The notes beneath the pieces are model-generated. The model had not been told where the DNA came from and searched no databases. It was given only the letters and a program-made list of their open reading frames with translations. 64,000 nt of DNA from contig JADFXG010000007.1 of the NCBI GenBank assembly GCA_015233895.1, forward strand, positions 1 through 64,000, read 5' to 3'. This DNA comes from Nitrospirota bacterium. GTDB taxonomy: Bacteria; Nitrospirota; Thermodesulfovibrionia; Thermodesulfovibrionales; Magnetobacteriaceae. The position numbers and the translations under genes were made by a program. How positions within the stretch are numbered: position 1 is the stretch's first letter; each line of letters opens with the position of its first letter. Positions 51,753 to 62,023 of the stretch are shown one piece after another.

Positions 51753-52661
51753 TCATTTTCCAGCCTTTTTCAATAACTCTTCTTCTATTTCTATGTCCCA
51801 GGCCAAAAGCGCTTCACGTCTGCTTTCTCTTGCCTCTCTTATAAGGCGCAGATTACGAGCTGTGGTTTCAGGCTCCCAGGGCTCCCGCACTAATGTCAGA
51901 GCTTTTGTAAGTGATTTAAGTGAATTTTCTTTTTCTTTAGCTAATACATTTAATTCAAGAAGCGTTGCGTAGTCCCAGTAATCCGGCTTTCCTGTAACTA
52001 TCCGGCGCTCTACTGCATAATGCACTACAGGTATTAGCTGCTCACGCCTTGGATCAGGTGGAGTCTGTAGTTCCATCAGAGTTACTGCATTAACACCGGG
52101 ATAAGCATCCCGCCAATCTGATTCAAAACCCTTTAAATAAGTTTCGACTGCTTTATTAAGATAATCAGCAGCAGCAATTTCTTGCCCTTTCTTTATTTCT
52201 GCCTCCCATCTGTCTTTATACACTCTGCCTAAAATCCCGCATGTCTCACTGCTTGGACCACGTTTGTTTATCTGTGTTAAGAGAACAGCTTCAGCCTCCT
52301 CAGATTTACCATCGCGATTCAGTGCAAACCCAAGTTGTTCCTGAATCATAAGCTCAGAAGCTAAAGGCTTAGACATCTTATCAACCAATGCTATCATGTT
52401 TTTATAGGCGCCAACTGCCCGATAAGAAAGAAATAAGTCAACAACAACACCTGCCTCCGCTTTCTCTATTGAAGGAATCTCATTCTCTATCTCACGCAGT
52501 GACTCTACTCCCTCTTTTCTTGCACTTTTGAGACGCACCTTAAACTCCGGGGAGTAATCCGCTATCTCTCTGAAAAGATCTGTTTTGGTGTGGGCTATAT
52601 TAGAAAACTCTCCGACAAGTTGATAAAGAGGATTTTCTGTCTTAACCATTTTATGATACAC
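51753..52661 (-). CDS. DUF4071 / TRAF-binding-domain-like TPR protein
   Basis: 302 residues, all helical. The stretch LGRVYKDRW ... YLNKAVETYLKGFESDWRDAYPGVNAVTLMEL (about 145-215) is the signature of the DUF4071 (MAP3K TRAF-binding-like) family, a TPR-like fold. In bacteria it often sits next to or within signalling or stress proteins with TIR or caspase-like parts. No effector domain is present in this chain. It is transcribed alone and convergent with bioB. Confidence 0.75.
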   Translation of the reverse strand: MYHKMVKTENPLYQLVGEFSNIAHTKTDLFREIADYSPEFKVRLKSARKEGVESLREIENEIPSIEKAEAGVVVDLFLSYRAVGAYKNMIALVDKMSKPLASELMIQEQLGFALNRDGKSEEAEAVLLTQINKRGPSSETCGILGRVYKDRWEAEIKKGQEIAAADYLNKAVETYLKGFESDWRDAYPGVNAVTLMELQTPPDPRREQLIPVVHYAVERRIVTGKPDYWDYATLLELNVLAKEKENSLKSLTKALTLVREPWEPETTARNLRLIREARESRREALLAWDIEIEEELLKKAGK

Positions 52662-53535: not shown

Positions 53536-53565
53536 TTGATTTTAACATGTATTGAATTATATAAT
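53536..53565 (+). promoter_or_regulatory. Sigma70-type promoter of the chemotaxis operon
   Basis: TTGATT (53536-53541), an 18-base spacer and a perfect TATAAT (53560-53565). The expected start of RNA near 53572 leaves a leader of only about 7 bases before the ATG at 53579, with no Shine-Dalgarno sequence. Confidence 0.6.
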
Positions 53566-53578
53566 ACAATGGTTTCGA

Positions 53579-55426
53579 ATGAACAAAGCAAGATTAGAGA
53601 AATTAAAAAAGAGTTTGAACCACTCCGATGTCTCAAGGCGGCGGCAGGCTGCCTCTATGCTTGGGGAGGGTGATGAGCGGGCAATTTATCCACTAATAAC
53701 GGCTCTCTTTGACAAAAGCCTTGCCGTACAGGACTCTGCTGCCCAATCTTTGATTCAAATAGGCGGCGAGGCTGTAGCTTATATGACCATACCGGTTTTA
53801 AGGAAAGAGGCTTCTCAAAGAAATGCAGCCCTCTTAATTCTCAAAGACCTTGGCGAGGTCTCAGTTCCTTTTCTGTATGATCTCTTAAAGGACAGGGATG
53901 AAGATATGCGAAAGTTTGCTGTTGACCTGCTTGGCGATATTCATATCGGAGTTGATTATGAATTGTTGATACCTATGTTTAAAGATGAAAACGCAAACGT
54001 AAGAGCCGCAACATGCCGTTCATTCGGCCTTCTTAACGTTAAAGAGGGTGTAAAGTATCTTAAGAAGGCTCTCTCTGACCCTGAGGAATGGGTCGCTTTT
54101 ACCGCTTTGGAGGCTCTTGGTGCCATGGAGTCTGAGGAGGGGGTAACCGCTATTAGTGAACTCTGCAACGGTTCCTCTTTGGTGCTTAAGTTTGCAGCTT
54201 TTGAAACTCTAGGTAAAATTCCCTCTAAACAATCCAAAGATGCACTCATCGAGTGCACTAAAACCACCGATTCCTTTACAAAATCAGTTGCAGTAAAGAG
54301 CCTGGTTCAGATTGGCATAGAGCCTGATATGCTTTTCCTTGCCCCTGACCTCAGAGTTATGCTCCAAAGTGATGACTGGGAGGATAGATTTGCAGCTATT
54401 TCAGGTCTTTCAGTAATAAAAGATAAAGATTCACTTTATACTCTTCTGGATATGGCAGGCTCCCTGGACACCTCTTATCCTGAAAATGAAGAACATACAG
54501 CCATCATAAAGGATGCTGTTTTAAATATTGCCGACTGCTCATCGTTGCTCTCTCTTTGTGACATCAATAACCTAAAATTCAGAGGCATGGCAATTTTGGT
54601 GGAAACACTCGGAAAACTTAAGTGCGTTGAGGCTATTGATACACTTGTAAAACTCCTTAGAAGTTCACTCAGGGATATTCGCAGGGAGGCTGCCCATGCA
54701 CTTGTTGAAATTGCAGATGAGCGCTGTGTGGACTCACTGATTGAGGCACTCTCTGATGAGGACGGCCACGTCAGAAAACAGAGCATCTATGCTCTAAGAA
54801 AGTTGAAAGCCAAAAAATCTTTTTTACCCATACTTGATCTTATAAGCAAAGAGGGTTACGAGGATGTTGTTGATGAAGGGGTTAAGGCCCTGCTTTCTAT
54901 GGATTCATCAAAGTTTCTGCATAAAGCCTCCTCTTATCCTGAAAATTTTAAAATCTATATAGCTAAATATGCTCAGGAGACGGAGCTATTGCTTGACCTT
55001 TCAAAGGATGACAGTAAAAGTGTTAAAATAGCGGCGATTTCACGGCTCGGCTCTTTTAATCAGCAAAATGCTTATGACAGACTTTCTGAACTCTTAAATG
55101 ATAATGATTTAGAACTAAGACGCTCCTCAGCAATGACTCTCAGCCAGTACGGTGTTTTTGTTGATGCTCTTTTAACGGCTGTCAACGATAGTGATATGTG
55201 GGTTAGATTTTATGCACTTAAAGCGATTGCTGCTACAAAGGGTGCTGAGTACCCTGATCTGTTTGCTCAGGCACTTAATGACCGTGAAAACCTTGTAGTT
55301 ATGGGGGCAATTGATGCGCTTTCAATTTTAGGCGGACAGGATGCGTATGAGGCCATCTATTCCATCAGAGATCATACAGATGACGCAATAAGGCAGCGTG
55401 TTGAAGAGGTCTTACAGAGCTTGTAA
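53579..55426 (+). CDS. HEAT-repeat protein at the head of the chemotaxis operon
   Basis: 615 residues from the ATG at 53579, chosen because a TTG at 53552 lies upstream of the -10 box. Nearly the whole chain is HEAT/PBS-lyase repeats of about 30 residues (for example RRQAASMLGEGDERAIYPLITAL; VRAATCRSFGLLNVKEGVKYLKKAL; VRKQSIYALRKLKAKKSFLPIL). Such alpha-solenoids bind partner proteins. The stop overlaps cheR by one base (TAATG), so the protein is probably a scaffold or regulator of the signalling complex. Confidence 0.88.
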   Translation: MNKARLEKLKKSLNHSDVSRRRQAASMLGEGDERAIYPLITALFDKSLAVQDSAAQSLIQIGGEAVAYMTIPVLRKEASQRNAALLILKDLGEVSVPFLYDLLKDRDEDMRKFAVDLLGDIHIGVDYELLIPMFKDENANVRAATCRSFGLLNVKEGVKYLKKALSDPEEWVAFTALEALGAMESEEGVTAISELCNGSSLVLKFAAFETLGKIPSKQSKDALIECTKTTDSFTKSVAVKSLVQIGIEPDMLFLAPDLRVMLQSDDWEDRFAAISGLSVIKDKDSLYTLLDMAGSLDTSYPENEEHTAIIKDAVLNIADCSSLLSLCDINNLKFRGMAILVETLGKLKCVEAIDTLVKLLRSSLRDIRREAAHALVEIADERCVDSLIEALSDEDGHVRKQSIYALRKLKAKKSFLPILDLISKEGYEDVVDEGVKALLSMDSSKFLHKASSYPENFKIYIAKYAQETELLLDLSKDDSKSVKIAAISRLGSFNQQNAYDRLSELLNDNDLELRRSSAMTLSQYGVFVDALLTAVNDSDMWVRFYALKAIAATKGAEYPDLFAQALNDRENLVVMGAIDALSILGGQDAYEAIYSIRDHTDDAIRQRVEEVLQSL

Positions 55427-56244
55427 TGGAACTTAAAGATGAAACATTTAGAAATTTCAGAGATTTCATATATGAAAAAAGCGGTATATACATACCGGAT
55501 ACAAAAAAGTATTTTATAGAAAACAGATTAGGCAAAAGAATAGAGGAAAACAAACTGGCAAGCTTTGACGATTATTTATACATGTTGAAATATAATAACA
55601 ATATCAGTGAACTGAATGTTATGTTTGAAAGAATAACAACAAATGAGACATTTTTTTTTCGTGAACTCCAACAATTAGAGGTGCTTGTGGGGCACATAAT
55701 ACCTAAGATAAAGGCGGAGTTAAAACCTGCAACCTTAAGAATCTGGTCATCAGCCAGTTCAACCGGAGAGGAGCCCTACACTATCGCAATGATGCTTATG
55801 GAAAACCCCAAAACGGCAGGTATAAAATTTGAGATACTTGCCTCGGATTTAAGCGAATCCGTTTTACAAAAAGCCAGAGTAGCCACCTATGGCCAGTACT
55901 CAATCAGAAACGTTCCTCAAAACTATCTGAAAAAGTATTTTAAACAGTTAGAAGGTACCAATTATGCCTTAAATACCGAGGTTCGCTCAAAGGTGAAATT
56001 TGTACAGATTAACCTTCTTGATGCAGCAAAGATGAGAAGTGTCAGGGACATGGACGTTGTGCTTTGTAGAAATGTGTTGATATACTTTGATAAAAAAGCA
56101 AAAATATCTGTAGTAACAAGTATTTATGAGTCGCTGAAAAACGGCGGCCATTTTCTAATAGGAATGGCTGAGTCACTGCACGATGTAACACGTGCGTTTA
56201 AGCCTGCAGTCATAGATAAAACAGTGGTTTATCAGAAGGCATAA
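55426..56244 (+). CDS. cheR: Chemotaxis protein methyltransferase CheR
   Basis: 272 residues. An N-terminal CheR helix domain (FRNFRDFIYEKSGIYI) is followed by the SAM-binding part (RIWSSASSTGEEPYTIAMML; LASDLSESVLQKAR; VLCRNVLIYFD). It methylates glutamates of chemoreceptors with SAM. It begins at the stop of the HEAT gene. No receptor gene is present in the window. Confidence 0.96.
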   Translation: MELKDETFRNFRDFIYEKSGIYIPDTKKYFIENRLGKRIEENKLASFDDYLYMLKYNNNISELNVMFERITTNETFFFRELQQLEVLVGHIIPKIKAELKPATLRIWSSASSTGEEPYTIAMMLMENPKTAGIKFEILASDLSESVLQKARVATYGQYSIRNVPQNYLKKYFKQLEGTNYALNTEVRSKVKFVQINLLDAAKMRSVRDMDVVLCRNVLIYFDKKAKISVVTSIYESLKNGGHFLIGMAESLHDVTRAFKPAVIDKTVVYQKA

Positions 56245-56266: not shown

Positions 56267-56632
56267 ATGAAGATAATGGTAGTGGATGACGATAAGACTA
56301 CTCGGAAAATACTCGGCCTCTATCTGAAAGGCGGAGGGCACGAACCTGTGTTTGCAGAAAACGGCCTTGACGCTATAGAAAAACTTGCTGCCAACGAGGT
56401 CGATTTAATCCTGACAGATCTAAATATGCCCTACATGGATGGCATAGAGTTGACTAAAACCCTTAAAACGGATCCTTCTTTTAAGGATATTCCATTAGTA
56501 ATGATAACTACGGAAAATGATGAGGCTGAAAGAAGCAAAGCTATGGCTGCAGGTGCAAACGGTTATCTGGTAAAGCCGATATCAGCCGATACACTCAATA
56601 AGAATGTTAAAATATTTGCAAAAAAAAATTAA
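56267..56632 (+). CDS. cheY: CheY-like single-domain response regulator
   Basis: 121 residues, a bare receiver. Acidic pair D7/D8 (VVDDD), phospho-acceptor Asp in LILTDLNMPYMDG, Thr in MITTEND and Lys in LVKPIS are all present. GGAGG about 9 bases before the ATG. It is followed 18 bases later by a second CheY; one probably drives the motor and the other could be a phosphate sink. Confidence 0.93.
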   Translation: MKIMVVDDDKTTRKILGLYLKGGGHEPVFAENGLDAIEKLAANEVDLILTDLNMPYMDGIELTKTLKTDPSFKDIPLVMITTENDEAERSKAMAAGANGYLVKPISADTLNKNVKIFAKKN

Positions 56633-56650: not shown

Positions 56651-57043
56651 ATGCCATATGACAAGCACATGAAAATTCTTGTGGTTGATGATTTTTCAAC
56701 AATGAGAAGAATCATTAAAAACATCTTAAAGCAGCTCGGATATGAGAAAATTGAAGAGGCTGAGGACGGTGAACAGGCCTTTACCAAACTTAAAAATGGT
56801 GACTTTGATTTTTTGATAACCGACTGGAATATGCCTAACGTTACCGGCCTTGAGTTACTCAAAAGAGTTAGAGCAGACGCAAAATTAAAGGCTATCCCTG
56901 TGTTACTGGTAACAGCAGAGGCAGAAAAAGAGCAGGTCATTGAGGCTGTTAAAGCTGGTGTTAATAACTATGTCATTAAACCTTTCACTGCGGATGTGCT
57001 TAAGGATAAGCTGGATAAGATATTTGAAAGACTGAAAAAATAA
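56651..57043 (+). CDS. cheY: Chemotaxis response regulator CheY
   Basis: 130 residues. It matches classical CheY closely: [27 protein letters not shown], phospho-acceptor Asp in [20 protein letters not shown] and the invariant Lys in YVIKPFT. GGAGG 7 bases before the ATG. Of the two receivers in the operon this is the better candidate for the flagellar motor signal and for the substrate of the CheZ domain encoded next. Confidence 0.96.
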
Positions 57044-57064: not shown

Positions 57065-58342
57065 ATGGGCCAGTATATAGGTTTTAACATTGGCAGGGAG
57101 GAATATGTAGTTCCTATTCTGATTGTGCAGGAGATCATGAAGCCAACTCAGACCACAGTTTTGCCGCATTCAAGGGATTTTGTGATGGGTATAATCAGTT
57201 TGCGCGGCAAGACGATTACAGTTATAGATTTAAAACAAAAGCTAGGACTATTTAACGCCGACTCACAGGGAGAGGGCAATGTTATAGTGGTCAATATGGG
57301 ACGCATTACGTTTGGAGTTAAGGTGGATTCCATAACCGGTGTTATGAATATAGATAATGATTCAATTGTAACAGAGGTCGGATTTGTTGGCACAAATACG
57401 GATGAATGCCTAAAGGGAGTTGCTAATCTCGGTGATGACAGGATGGTACTTGTTTTAGATTTTACTAAGTTATTAACTAACGAGGAGATTTCCCTTATAG
57501 GGGAGGATATAGTAAATTCTGAATGTACTGATGAAGGTGAGGTTGTGGTCACAAAGAGAATAACAACTATGGGCGGAGATTTTTTCGTAAAAGAGGTGCG
57601 GGATGCCGTCCATAAGAGTGCTGCAGATAAAGGGCTTGATCAAAAATTGGTCATAAGATTAATGGAAAATGTCAACAAGCTAATGGAGTCCTTTGCCAAT
57701 GGAGATATAGAGTCTGCCGAACGGGCGATAGATGATCTTTCAAGTTTCGGGGACCGTGAAATGTTTTCAGAGATTGGGAGAATGACCCGCAAGTTGCATG
57801 ACTCCATAAAAGATTTTAAACAGTTATTGAACCCTAAGCTAAAAACTCTCGCTGAGGGGGAGATGTCTGAGGCAACCGATAAGCTTGAGTGGGTAATAAC
57901 TAAAACTGAGGAGTCAGCAAATAAGACTATAAATATAGCAGAGAAAAATCAGGCTAAAATAGATGAGCTCCTGGCTGCAATGGATAACCTTGAATCATCA
58001 CCTCAATCTGAGGAAACTGCAACTGCAGATAAGGATTTTTCCAATCTTTTAAAAAACGAATTAAACGATATGAATAATGATTTTCTTGAGATAATGATGG
58101 CACAGGAGTTTCAGGACCTGACAGGACAGATACTTAGAAAAGTGATCAAACTTGTCAGAGACCTGGAGGATCAACTGGTAAAACTTGTTATGATGTTTGG
58201 CGTAAAAGTAGATGGGAAGCAGCCTGAAAAACCGATTGAAAAAACAGAGGGTGAACTCCTCGGCCCTCAAATAAAACCCTCTGAAAGCGCAGTGTCCGAC
58301 CAAGGTGATGTGGATGCGCTGCTTGCTGAGTTTGGATTCTGA
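57065..58342 (+). CDS. CheW-CheZ fusion protein (coupling domain plus CheY phosphatase)
   Basis: 425 residues. Residues 1 to about 145 are a CheW domain (YIGFNIGREEYVVPILIVQEIMKP ... HSRDFVMGIISLRGKTITVIDLKQKLGL ... GVANLGDDRMVLVLDFTKLL). Residues about 165-385 are CheZ: a long helical hairpin with the catalytic block MAQEFQDLTGQ, where D351 and Q355 match D143 and Q147 of E. coli CheZ. The chain ends in DVDALLAEFGF, the CheY-tethering tail of CheZ. The protein should sit in the receptor-kinase array through CheW and dephosphorylate CheY~P there. GGAGG 6 bases before the ATG. A separate CheW lies at the end of the operon. Confidence 0.93.
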   Translation: MGQYIGFNIGREEYVVPILIVQEIMKPTQTTVLPHSRDFVMGIISLRGKTITVIDLKQKLGLFNADSQGEGNVIVVNMGRITFGVKVDSITGVMNIDNDSIVTEVGFVGTNTDECLKGVANLGDDRMVLVLDFTKLLTNEEISLIGEDIVNSECTDEGEVVVTKRITTMGGDFFVKEVRDAVHKSAADKGLDQKLVIRLMENVNKLMESFANGDIESAERAIDDLSSFGDREMFSEIGRMTRKLHDSIKDFKQLLNPKLKTLAEGEMSEATDKLEWVITKTEESANKTINIAEKNQAKIDELLAAMDNLESSPQSEETATADKDFSNLLKNELNDMNNDFLEIMMAQEFQDLTGQILRKVIKLVRDLEDQLVKLVMMFGVKVDGKQPEKPIEKTEGELLGPQIKPSESAVSDQGDVDALLAEFGF

Positions 58343-58400: not shown

Positions 58401-60341
58401 TTGTCTGACGAAATGGATGAAATAATAAATGATTTTTTAATAGAAACAACAGAGCTTGTTGATGATTTGAATCAGAAGTTTGTTGAGCTTGAGTCTGACA
58501 GAGATAATCAGGATTTGGTCAACAGTATATTCCGTTCCGTCCACACGATAAAGGGAGCCTCCGGGTTTTTGGGCTTTAACCAGATGGTGGATGTGACGCA
58601 TATAACGGAAAGTGTGCTGAAAAAAATAAAGGATGGTGATTTAATTCTTGAGCCCGGCATTATGGATGTGATACTTGAGTCCATAGACATGGTTAAAGTG
58701 TTGTTAGATCATATAAAACAAAAAGACGGAGCTGAGGAGGACATTACCGGTCTTGTTGGCCGCCTTAAGGCAATAAATGACGGCACTGCCGCAGGCTTAT
58801 CCGAGCCGCCGCAGATGACGGCACAGCCTGCCTCAGATGAGCCGGATATAGATATGACAGGCGTGCTGGATACCGATCTTCTGGCAGAACTTGAGGCAGA
58901 ACATGCTGCCTCCTCAAGCGTCAAACAGGTGGGCACAATCCTTATAGAAAGCGGTTTGATTAGTGAGGATGACGTGGATGAGGCTCTTAAGATTCAGGAG
59001 CTTATCAAAGAGTCAGTAGATGTTGGAGAGATTCCCAGGGTTGGTGAAATTTTAACCGTCACCGAAAAAGCATCCAAAGATGATGTAAAGAAGGCTCTCA
59101 ACAAACAGGCCCCGCCATCCCCTCCTGCTGAGAAATCAGATAAACCCCAACAGGTGGAACAGACAATCAGAGTGGATGTTGAGCGGCTTGATAACGTGCT
59201 TAATCTGGTTGGGGAACTGGTTTTGGCAAGAAACCGGCTTGTTAAAATCTCAACTACTCTTGAAATAAAATACCAGGACAGCGAAGACCTGGCGCCGCTT
59301 ACCGAGTTAACATCATTTATAAACCTGATAACAACAGACCTTCAGATAGCGGTTATGAAGACACGTATGCAACCCATAAAGAAGGTATTTAACCGGTTCC
59401 CAAGAATGGTAAGAGACCTTGCCCGCCAGCTAAACAAAGAGGTAGAGTTAAGGCTTTTTGGCGAGGATACCGAACTTGATAAGTCAATTATTGAGGAAAT
59501 AGGCGACCCCCTTGTTCATTTAATAAGGAACTCCGTAGATCATGGCATAGAGATGCCAAAAGAAAGACAGTCTATTGGAAAGCCAACCTTAGGCACCGTA
59601 ATACTTTCAGCCTATCAGGAGGGTAATAACATAGTCCTTGCAATAGAGGACGATGGTAAAGGCATAGACCACGAAATGCTAAGAGAAAAAATAGTGGAAA
59701 AAGGCCTTTCAACATTTGATGAACTTGATAAACTTTCCATAAAAGAGGTTCTGGATTTTATTCTCTTACCCGGATTTTCCACAGCCAAGGTCGTATCAGA
59801 TGTTTCAGGCAGAGGGGTTGGTATGGATGTGGTAAAGACCAACATAGATAAGTTAAACGGTGTTATCACAATCGATACGGAAAAAGGTAAAGGGTCAAAG
59901 TTTATAATCCGGCTGCCGCTTACGCTTGCCATCATTCAGGCGCTTATGGTAGGAGTCAGCAAAGAGGTGTTTGCAATTCCTCTGGCCTCGGTTGTTGAAA
60001 CAGTTCGATTGGTTGATAAGGACATTAAAACAATAAGGGGACAGGAGACTGTTATACTCAGAGACGAGGTGGTGCCGGTGCACAGACTTGCTGACAAGTT
60101 CTTCATAGAGAGGTCCTCTGATGTAAACGGTAAGATGTACCTTGTGGTTATACTGATAGGAGAGAAGAAATACGGACTAATGGTTGATAAGCTTTTTGGC
60201 CAGGAAGAGGTAGTTATTAAGTCCATAGAGGGATTTTCCGGGAGTGCCGATGGCGTAGCCGGAGCCACAATAACAGGAGACGGAAAAGTTGTGTTGATTT
60301 TGGATCCATCTGTGATGTTTAGCAGCGCTAAGCACGGATAA
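58401..60341 (+). CDS. cheA: Chemotaxis histidine kinase CheA
   Basis: 646 residues. P1 HPt domain with H48 in SVHTIKGASGFLGF; a linker (about 110-245); P3 dimerisation (VERLDNVLNLVGELVLARNRL); P4 kinase (IRNSVDHGIE, EDDGKGID, GRGVGMD); P5 CheW-like regulatory domain. The linker has no recognisable P2 CheY-binding domain but holds two copies of a 'VG-x-IL...A..K' motif (about 175-245), resembling the N-domain of GspE-type ATPases. The start is TTG, supported by GGAGGG 8 bases upstream. Confidence 0.96.
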   Translation: MSDEMDEIINDFLIETTELVDDLNQKFVELESDRDNQDLVNSIFRSVHTIKGASGFLGFNQMVDVTHITESVLKKIKDGDLILEPGIMDVILESIDMVKVLLDHIKQKDGAEEDITGLVGRLKAINDGTAAGLSEPPQMTAQPASDEPDIDMTGVLDTDLLAELEAEHAASSSVKQVGTILIESGLISEDDVDEALKIQELIKESVDVGEIPRVGEILTVTEKASKDDVKKALNKQAPPSPPAEKSDKPQQVEQTIRVDVERLDNVLNLVGELVLARNRLVKISTTLEIKYQDSEDLAPLTELTSFINLITTDLQIAVMKTRMQPIKKVFNRFPRMVRDLARQLNKEVELRLFGEDTELDKSIIEEIGDPLVHLIRNSVDHGIEMPKERQSIGKPTLGTVILSAYQEGNNIVLAIEDDGKGIDHEMLREKIVEKGLSTFDELDKLSIKEVLDFILLPGFSTAKVVSDVSGRGVGMDVVKTNIDKLNGVITIDTEKGKGSKFIIRLPLTLAIIQALMVGVSKEVFAIPLASVVETVRLVDKDIKTIRGQETVILRDEVVPVHRLADKFFIERSSDVNGKMYLVVILIGEKKYGLMVDKLFGQEEVVIKSIEGFSGSADGVAGATITGDGKVVLILDPSVMFSSAKHG

Positions 60342-60349
60342 CAGATAAA

Positions 60350-61444
60350 GTGATACAGACTCCTGAAAAAAAGATAAAGGTGCTAATTGTGGATGACTCA
60401 GCCTTTATGAGAAACACCATAAAGAGCTTGATAGTGAGGGATCCTGAGATACAGGTTGTTGGAACTGCCTCAGACGGTTTTGAGGCGCTGGAGAAAATAG
60501 AATCCCTGAAACCTGACATTATTACACTGGACGTTGAGATGCCGCGGATGAACGGGCTTGAGGCTCTTAGGGCAATCATGGCAAGCAACAATCCTCTGCC
60601 TGTGATAATGGTTAGCTCACTTACGACAGAGGGCGCTAAGACCACTTTAGAGGCACTGGAGCTTGGTGCCGTGGATTTTATTCCCAAAAATCTCTCTGAT
60701 CTATCTGTTAATATCGTCAATATAAAGGATATGCTGCTGGATAAGCTTAAGCAAATAGGAGGCAAAAAACTCAAAATACAGAGAAAGGTTTCCTCTCTTA
60801 AAGTTGGAGTTTCCACAGTGGCCAAGCCGGTTGCACCACAGCCGCAGTCTGTCCGGTCAGTTCAGTTTACATCAAACAAGAAAGTACAGATGGTTGCCAT
60901 TGGAACATCAACAGGCGGCCCTAAGGCGCTTCAGAGTATAGTGCCATTTTTCCCTAAAAATTTCTCAGTACCTGTTATAATATCCCAGCACATGCCGGCT
61001 AATTTCACAGGCCCTTTTGCCGAGCGGCTTTGCCAGCTGAGCCAGTTGCCGGTAAAAGAAGCCAAGCATGGTGAAAAAATAGAAAATGGTATTGTCTATA
61101 TTGCCCCTGGCTCAGGACACATGAGTATTACCAAGAAGGGATTTGACAAATTTATCAGCATCGGGGATGACCCTGGCTACATATATAAACCCTCGGTTGA
61201 CGTTATGATGTTAACCACTAATTCTGTAATGCCTGGGGCCTGTCTTGGAGTCATATTAACCGGCATGGGTAATGACGGCTTTAAAGGGATGAGAGCTATT
61301 AAGGAATCAGGTGGCAGAACGATAGCTCAGGATGAGGAAAGTTGTGTTGTATTTGGAATGCCCAAGTTTGTCGTTGAAGCGGGTCTTGCCGATAAGGTTG
61401 TGACGCTTTCAGAGATAGCAGGGGAGATTATTAATTCAATATAG
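60350..61444 (+). CDS. cheB: Chemotaxis response regulator/protein-glutamate methylesterase CheB
   Basis: 364 residues. Receiver domain with D61 (TLDVEMPRMNG), linker, and methylesterase domain with the catalytic Ser in AIGTSTGGP, His in SQHMPANFTGPF and Asp in LTGMGNDG. It removes methyl groups set by CheR. The start is GTG, 8 bases after the cheA stop. Confidence 0.96.
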   Translation: MIQTPEKKIKVLIVDDSAFMRNTIKSLIVRDPEIQVVGTASDGFEALEKIESLKPDIITLDVEMPRMNGLEALRAIMASNNPLPVIMVSSLTTEGAKTTLEALELGAVDFIPKNLSDLSVNIVNIKDMLLDKLKQIGGKKLKIQRKVSSLKVGVSTVAKPVAPQPQSVRSVQFTSNKKVQMVAIGTSTGGPKALQSIVPFFPKNFSVPVIISQHMPANFTGPFAERLCQLSQLPVKEAKHGEKIENGIVYIAPGSGHMSITKKGFDKFISIGDDPGYIYKPSVDVMMLTTNSVMPGACLGVILTGMGNDGFKGMRAIKESGGRTIAQDEESCVVFGMPKFVVEAGLADKVVTLSEIAGEIINSI

Positions 61445-61558: not shown

Positions 61559-62023
61559 ATGGAGCCTTTTACAGCGACTGAAGACATACTTCAGCTTGTT
61601 ACTTTCACTCTCGGGACAGAGGAGTATGCTGTTGATATTTTAAAGGTACAAGAAATAAATCGGATGACATCAATAACGATGGTTCCCAATGCCCCGCCTT
61701 TTGTAGAGGGTGTGATAAACCTCCGCGGCAAAGTTATACCTGTTGTCAATTTGAGAAAGAAATTCGGAATTCCGGGGATGGAAGACAGTGAAAACGCCAA
61801 AATTATGATTGTTGACCTCAAAGGGGTTACGATGGGGCTGATTGTGGACGCAGTATCGGAGGTTCTCAGAGTGCCTGCAAATATCGTAGAACCCACCCCA
61901 CCAATGGCTACCGATATTAGTACAGAGTTTATATACGGCATCGCCAAGTTAAATGACAGGCTTATAATTATGCTTGACCTTGATAAGATGATTGACAGCG
62001 CTACGGATTCTTTCAGTTTCTAA
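61559..62023 (+). CDS. cheW: Chemotaxis coupling protein CheW
   Basis: 154 residues, a stand-alone CheW: LVTFTLGTEEYAVDILKVQEINRM, APPFVEGVINLRGKVIPVVNLRKKFGI and FIYGIAKLNDRLIIMLDLDKMI. It bridges receptors and CheA. It lies 114 bases after cheB; GGAGG about 8 bases before its ATG. The gap could hold a promoter, but I see no clear boxes. Confidence 0.95.
   Translation: MEPFTATEDILQLVTFTLGTEEYAVDILKVQEINRMTSITMVPNAPPFVEGVINLRGKVIPVVNLRKKFGIPGMEDSENAKIMIVDLKGVTMGLIVDAVSEVLRVPANIVEPTPPMATDISTEFIYGIAKLNDRLIIMLDLDKMIDSATDSFSF

Follow-up and report, generated by a model that had tools for sequence, protein, structure and literature searches.

A single gene encoding both a CheW coupling domain and a CheZ domain was found in a 64,000-nucleotide stretch of a Nitrospirota genome (assembly GCA_015233895.1, contig JADFXG010000007.1, positions 1 to 64,000), referred to here as the window. 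The fusion is real and is conserved across a whole Nitrospirota class, magnetic members included. Judged from its sequence, the protein is probably an adaptor with a built-in phosphatase, in which the CheW domain would place a CheY~P phosphatase in the chemoreceptor array. Its plus-strand open reading frame spans 425 codons, begins at an ATG preceded by a GGAGG ribosome-binding site and has no internal stops. The features of the fusion and its operon are listed in Table 1.

Table 1. Coordinates of the cheW-cheZ fusion, its parts and neighbouring che genes in the window.
Feature	Position	Strand	Basis
cheR	55426..56244	+	PF01739 E 3.2e-55
Single-domain receiver protein gene	56267..56632	+	PF00072 E 1e-28
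cheY, presumed CheZ-domain substrate	56651..57043	+	Solved CheY chains, E 1e-49 to 1.9e-53
cheW-cheZ fusion gene, 425 aa	57065..58342	+	One open frame, GGAGG RBS, Pfam CheW + CheZ
CheW domain, residues 3-140	57071..57484	+	PF01584; E. coli CheW 2ho9; Foldseek 8c5v
Linker, about residues 143-231	57491..57757	+	Alignment motif, AlphaFold2 secondary structure, dN/dS
CheZ domain, residues 232-425	57758..58339	+	PF04344; 1kmi_Z; D351 + Q355 in MMAQEFQDLTGQ; tail VDALLAEFGF
cheA	58401..60341	+	Hpt, H-kinase_dim, HATPase_c, CheW
cheB	60350..61444	+	Response_reg + CheB_methylest
Canonical single-domain cheW	61559..62023	+	PF01584 E 2.3e-41

The Pfam CheW model matched residues 3-140 with 111.3 bits against a cut-off of 23.5 (E 3.6e-32, profile 1-137 of 138), in agreement with the CheW domain placed at residues 1-145 by a first-pass annotation of the window. 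The N-terminal part aligned to E. coli CheW (2ho9) by sequence with an E-value of 5.8e-19. V21, E23 and R47 of the fusion correspond to V36, E38 and R62 of E. coli CheW, and R62 is reported to matter for the function of CheW in E. coli (PMC3828127). E23 and R47 did not vary among the 56 fused proteins aligned, and V21 was nearly invariant. AlphaFold2 modelled the CheW barrel confidently. Foldseek found this part to be similar to CheW of the E. coli core signalling unit (8c5v, TM-score 0.87). Both a whole-profile match and the core-complex residues of CheW coupling proteins are present in the fusion, and within the array its CheW domain is predicted to bind CheA P5 and receptors.

The CheZ model PF04344 matched residues 232-425 with 153.9 bits against a cut-off of 30.7 (E 6.5e-45, profile 2-203 of 203). 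A full CheZ had been annotated at about residues 165-425. The near-complete match bears out the full domain and its end but not its start, as the curated domain begins at about residue 232. The C-terminal part aligned to E. coli CheZ (1kmi_Z) by sequence with an E-value of 3.4e-16. The residues annotated as catalytic, D351 and Q355 in the segment MMAQEFQDLTGQ, aligned with D143 and Q147 of E. coli CheZ, and the annotated CheY-binding tail aligned with the tail of 1kmi_Z. The catalytic D and Q were invariant in 58 of 58 fused and 33 of 33 stand-alone proteins. In the AlphaFold2 model the CheZ part consisted of a long helical hairpin (residues 257-310 and 316-377), from which residues 379-412, modelled with low confidence, led to a last helix (414-422); this predicted arrangement is the CheZ layout. 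The model is a monomer with a low pTM of 0.39 and its CheZ part matched 1kmi weakly by fold, which may be expected because a dimer was predicted as a monomer. The whole-profile match, the catalytic Asp/Gln pair and a C-terminal CheY-binding helix that follows a flexible linker are all present. The domain would be expected to dimerise and to act as a CheY~P phosphatase.

The linker between the domains was conserved among most fused proteins. A GG motif (G171) was present in most fused families, and the linkers of families f22 and f14 differed from the rest. The last 30 or so residues of the linker aligned with the N-terminal ends of the separate CheZ proteins of Guyparkeria and Halothiobacillus, with matches beginning at query residues 193-200. 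AlphaFold2 predicted low-confidence strands followed by helices at 175-189, 193-212 and 215-226. Linker dN/dS was 0.10-0.24 in the comparisons with congeners that were unsaturated.

The two domains belong to one genuine protein. The frame was unbroken between them, and the same CheW and CheZ architecture was found in 58 distinct Nitrospirota proteins from many independent genomes, each in one frame. A missed frameshift is excluded because these independent genomes show the same single frame, and the hidden stop or frameshift that the first-pass annotation had asked to be checked was not found. The chance that a sequencing error or an assembly join fused two genes is negligible. The single-contig assemblies G079 and G075 carry the same frame, and recurrence, including in G079 (L010), which belongs to the same genus, rules out a frameshift or assembly error. 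The linker is conserved, and the whole gene is under purifying selection with a dN/dS of about 0.1 against congeners, linker included. The idea that CheZ is made on its own from a start inside the gene was considered and rejected, as no strong ribosome site was found in the linker. The closest named locus to the fused protein was that of MAG nDJH6bin1 (98% identity). The fused proteins of Candidatus Magnetomicrobium and Candidatus Magnetominusculus xianensis were 52-53% identical to that of the window. In NCBIfam the CheZ and CheW equivalog models both matched the fused protein below cut-off, and no model combines CheW and CheZ.

The operon in the window runs HEAT-repeat gene, cheR, receiver, cheY, cheW-cheZ, cheA, cheB and canonical cheW. 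This confirms the position of the fusion after cheY and before cheA, and the presence of a second, normal cheW, both noted in the first-pass annotation. The operon CheY is close to Vibrio and E. coli CheY, including the chain of the CheY-CheZ complex 1kmi, and therefore the usual CheZ substrate is encoded next door. The HEAT-repeat protein gene lies at 53552-55426 (PF13646, E 9e-66) and its end meets the cheR start at 55426. The same gene was found upstream of cheR in L033-L037, and it is therefore a member of the che operon in the window's family. Between the Hpt and dimerisation domains of the window CheA (58401-60341, codons about 175-240) the linker contains two repeats of the form G-x-I-L-x-x-x-G-x-I/A-x-x-x-x-V-x-x-A-L-x-x-Q. 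Repeats of the same type were present in CheA of L025 and L031. By eye they resemble the c-di-GMP-binding motif of MshEN, which is a lead only; a Pfam search gave no match of the repeats to the MshEN family. On the minus strand at 51753-52661 a bacterial protein matched MAP3K_TRAF_bd (Pfam, E 1.5e-45) and TPR-S (E 1.9e-26), and a methyltransferase gene adjoins it.

The fusion was the only CheZ match above the PF04344 cut-off in the window's genome. Further CheA, CheW and CheV-like proteins, assigned by frame length, were present in this genome. One of its frames, of 360 aa, holds two CheW domains in tandem (G000:C6:92509-93498), and in G052 three CheW domains were seen in one frame of 502 aa. 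Two homologues of CheX-type phosphatases were also present in the window's genome (G000:C21:3475-3771 and G000:C32:20627-20920) and are possible additional CheY~P sinks. Given these further CheA, CheW, CheV-like and CheX genes, signal termination may be shared.

The phylum-wide search covered 396 Nitrospirota genomes, of which 225 had CheZ above cut-off, and the CheW test was applied to a sample of the genes. Every tested CheZ of the window's class was fused, in 52 genomes from 12 families (f1, f3, f4, f6-f10, f12-f15) and in two additional MAGs from a named collection (L034 and L036). Outside the class the fusion was found in three of four genomes of f22 and in one genome of f25. One f22 genome and families f26, f29, f30, f33 and f35 had CheZ as a stand-alone protein. 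Its gene lay between cheY and cheA, the place that the fusion holds in f1, in f29, f26 and the f22 genome; this is the position of stand-alone CheZ in Nitrospira-type relatives. Among 398 Pseudomonadota genomes, 148 had CheZ above cut-off, and no fusion was seen. Pseudomonadota CheZ frames of 330-440 aa were dismissed as fusions after a set of 14 from among the longest was checked; none contained a CheW domain and several overlapped the neighbouring cheY frame. Frames of 401-407 aa in a Betaproteobacterial MAG and Sulfuricella (L048, L049) were upstream read-through with no CheW. A 4-kb contig labelled Opitutaceae (L044) carried a CheY-CheZ-CheA cluster whose CheZ grouped with Piscirickettsiaceae, and it is probably a contaminant of that MAG.

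Two gene orders around the fusion were frequent. The order cheY, cheW-cheZ, cheA was seen in f1 and f22. In f3, f4, f6, f7, f15 and others the fusion followed cheA and preceded either cheB or cheW and cheB. A separate canonical CheW match was present in 10 of 10 genomes checked. Replacement of canonical CheW by the fused domain was therefore rejected, and the fusion is an extra adaptor.

In the CheZ tree the fused f22 proteins grouped with stand-alone Nitrospira-type CheZ (100/100), and a single clade of all fused CheZ was rejected (p-AU 7.6e-38). In the CheW tree the CheW domains of all fused proteins came out as one group with moderate support (91/77), and in a larger quick CheW tree they were separated. 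The CheZ and CheW trees are compatible with a single ancient fusion followed by losses of the CheW part, or with two fusions. Stand-alone Pseudomonadota CheZ adjoined the f14 fused proteins in the CheZ tree (96/89). CheW may have been lost there too, a reading that depends on the root and on thin sampling.

The placement of CheZ differs between bacteria. The first-pass annotation stated that elsewhere a separate CheZ is brought to the array by CheA-short, which holds for enterics and does not extend to epsilonproteobacteria, where placement depends on ChePep, or to Azorhizobium, where polar placement is independent of CheA (PMC7750401). In E. coli the aromatic hairpin tip of CheZ, with two aromatics at residues 97/98, binds CheA-short (PMC7750401), and experiments and models show that CheZ placement alters the response (PMC2673030). 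The hairpin is shortened in fused CheZ: the distance from the threonine to the catalytic aspartate is 118 in E. coli and was 100-117 in the fused proteins, with a median of 100. Every fused protein had a hairpin tip that was shortened or deleted; deletion was seen in many. No tip Trp was found in any of the 58, and the aromatic CheA-short-binding tip was absent. In L023, L029, L050-L072 and relatives about 28 profile positions are missing at the tip, and for this reason PF04344 matched in two pieces (2-79 and 108-203). The tip was also absent from stand-alone Nitrospira-type CheZ. Tip loss as a mark of the fused proteins was therefore unsupported; it belongs to Nitrospirota CheZ as such, not to the fusion. 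Absence of the aromatic tip suggests that the enteric CheA-short route is unavailable and that a different placement route, such as the CheW domain, would be needed.

In the proposed mechanism the N-terminal CheW domain would occupy a CheW place in the receptor-kinase array next to canonical CheW, contacting CheA P5 and the receptor tips. The CheZ domains would dimerise into a four-helix bundle, the C-terminal tail would capture CheY~P and D351 and Q355 would remove its phosphate. With the phosphatase in the array beside CheA, CheY would gain and lose its phosphate in one place, and the enteric CheA-short route would not be used. CheY~P would thus be dephosphorylated at the array itself, as had been proposed in the annotation, and an effect on signalling would be expected. 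The reading is favoured because both domains scored far above curated cut-offs with their key residues invariant, the CheW part folds confidently, the adjacent CheY is of the E. coli/Vibrio type and the CheA-short tip is absent. It is favoured also because canonical CheW co-occurs, the fusion is conserved throughout a class, selection is purifying and the gene mostly lies within a che operon, in either of two orders. Against it stand the fusions of f8, f13 and f14 with no che gene detected in the fetched flanks, the other CheA, CheW, CheV-like and CheX proteins, the inexact tracking of tip loss with fusion, and the monomer model with its low pTM and weak CheZ fold match.

The main rival is that the CheW domain also relays the state of the receptors and kinase to CheZ, so that phosphatase activity is controlled by the stimulus. 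CheW connects receptor and kinase, and E. coli CheZ reportedly becomes a more active phosphatase once bound to CheA-short at the cluster (Wang and Matsumura, cited in PMC2673030). Most fused families conserve the linker, which is under selection and looks like something other than a free spacer. However, AlphaFold2 confidence was low at residues 150-179, which look less like a rigid transmitter than like a flexible tether, and the linker differs in f14 and f22. Such gating is considered unlikely. A placement away from the main array is rather improbable. The CheW domain would then be an assembly or targeting module, for instance for another chemosensory system, or a decoy adaptor, while CheZ works in the cytoplasm as usual. 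Several CheA and CheW sets are present per genome, and no che gene was detected beside the fusion within the fetched flanks in f8, f13 and f14 (L004, L006-L008, L012-L015, L019, L021, L024), as such a role would allow. On the other side, the fusion adjoins cheA in f1, f3, f4, f6, f7, f9, f10, f12, f15, f22 and f25, and the core-interaction residues of CheW are invariant. A more speculative extension, offered as a long shot, would build the fusion into the array ring as a state-sensing component; acting through neighbouring CheW domains, the receptors would control the kinase and the phosphatase jointly. The fusion may also be ancestral in Nitrospirota, with Nitrospira-type stand-alone CheZ derived by loss of the CheW part. 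If true, such joint control would be a form of chemotaxis control without earlier description.

Whether and why the phosphatase needs to sit beside the kinase has long been discussed. Other bacteria place CheZ by CheA-short, ChePep or unknown partners, and a whole class here appears to have phosphatase and array hard-wired together. The class-wide fusion offers a natural test of phosphatase localisation, and the protein could serve as a single-piece reagent to tether CheZ to arrays. The fusion also bears on steering by magnetotactic Nitrospirota, in which chemotaxis is known mostly from sequence.

The first-pass annotation knew of no described case of this exact fusion, and a search of 5.39 million open papers turned up no description. 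The CheW architectures that a 2023 study gives as described are CheA, CheV, 2xCheW, 3xCheW, CheW-CZB and CheWS (PMC10653840). The study mentions 30 more undescribed architectures in a supplementary figure (Fig. S10), and CheW-CheZ may be among them. Both modules are classical; what is new, as far as the open literature was searched, is that they are combined and that this is conserved across the class.

The fusion shares with E. coli and Vibrio CheZ (PF04344) the Asp/Gln pair of the catalytic site, a long helical hairpin and, at its C-terminus, a CheY-binding peptide, but differs in its covalent N-terminal CheW, shorter hairpin and lack of an aromatic CheA-short-binding tip. As in enterics the phosphatase would be placed at the array. 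In enterics this is by non-covalent binding of the tip to CheA-short (PMC7750401), whereas in the fusion it would be by a covalent CheW domain. The fusion adds an adaptor-effector design beside CheV and CheWS. Like CheV it joins a CheW domain to a second module able to lower CheY~P and is an extra adaptor beside canonical CheW. The receiver of CheV is thought to be a phosphate sink (PMC4742279), whereas the module of the fusion comes from a true phosphatase family. No match to Response_reg (Pfam) was found in the fused protein, and its architecture is not that of CheV. CheWS of Treponema likewise joins CheW to another chemotaxis module, CheR-like in this case, and lies in the array ring beside canonical CheW according to the 2023 study (PMC10653840). 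The CheWS module is a SAM-binding CheR-like sensor for signal input, while that of the fusion is a phosphatase by family, for signal termination.
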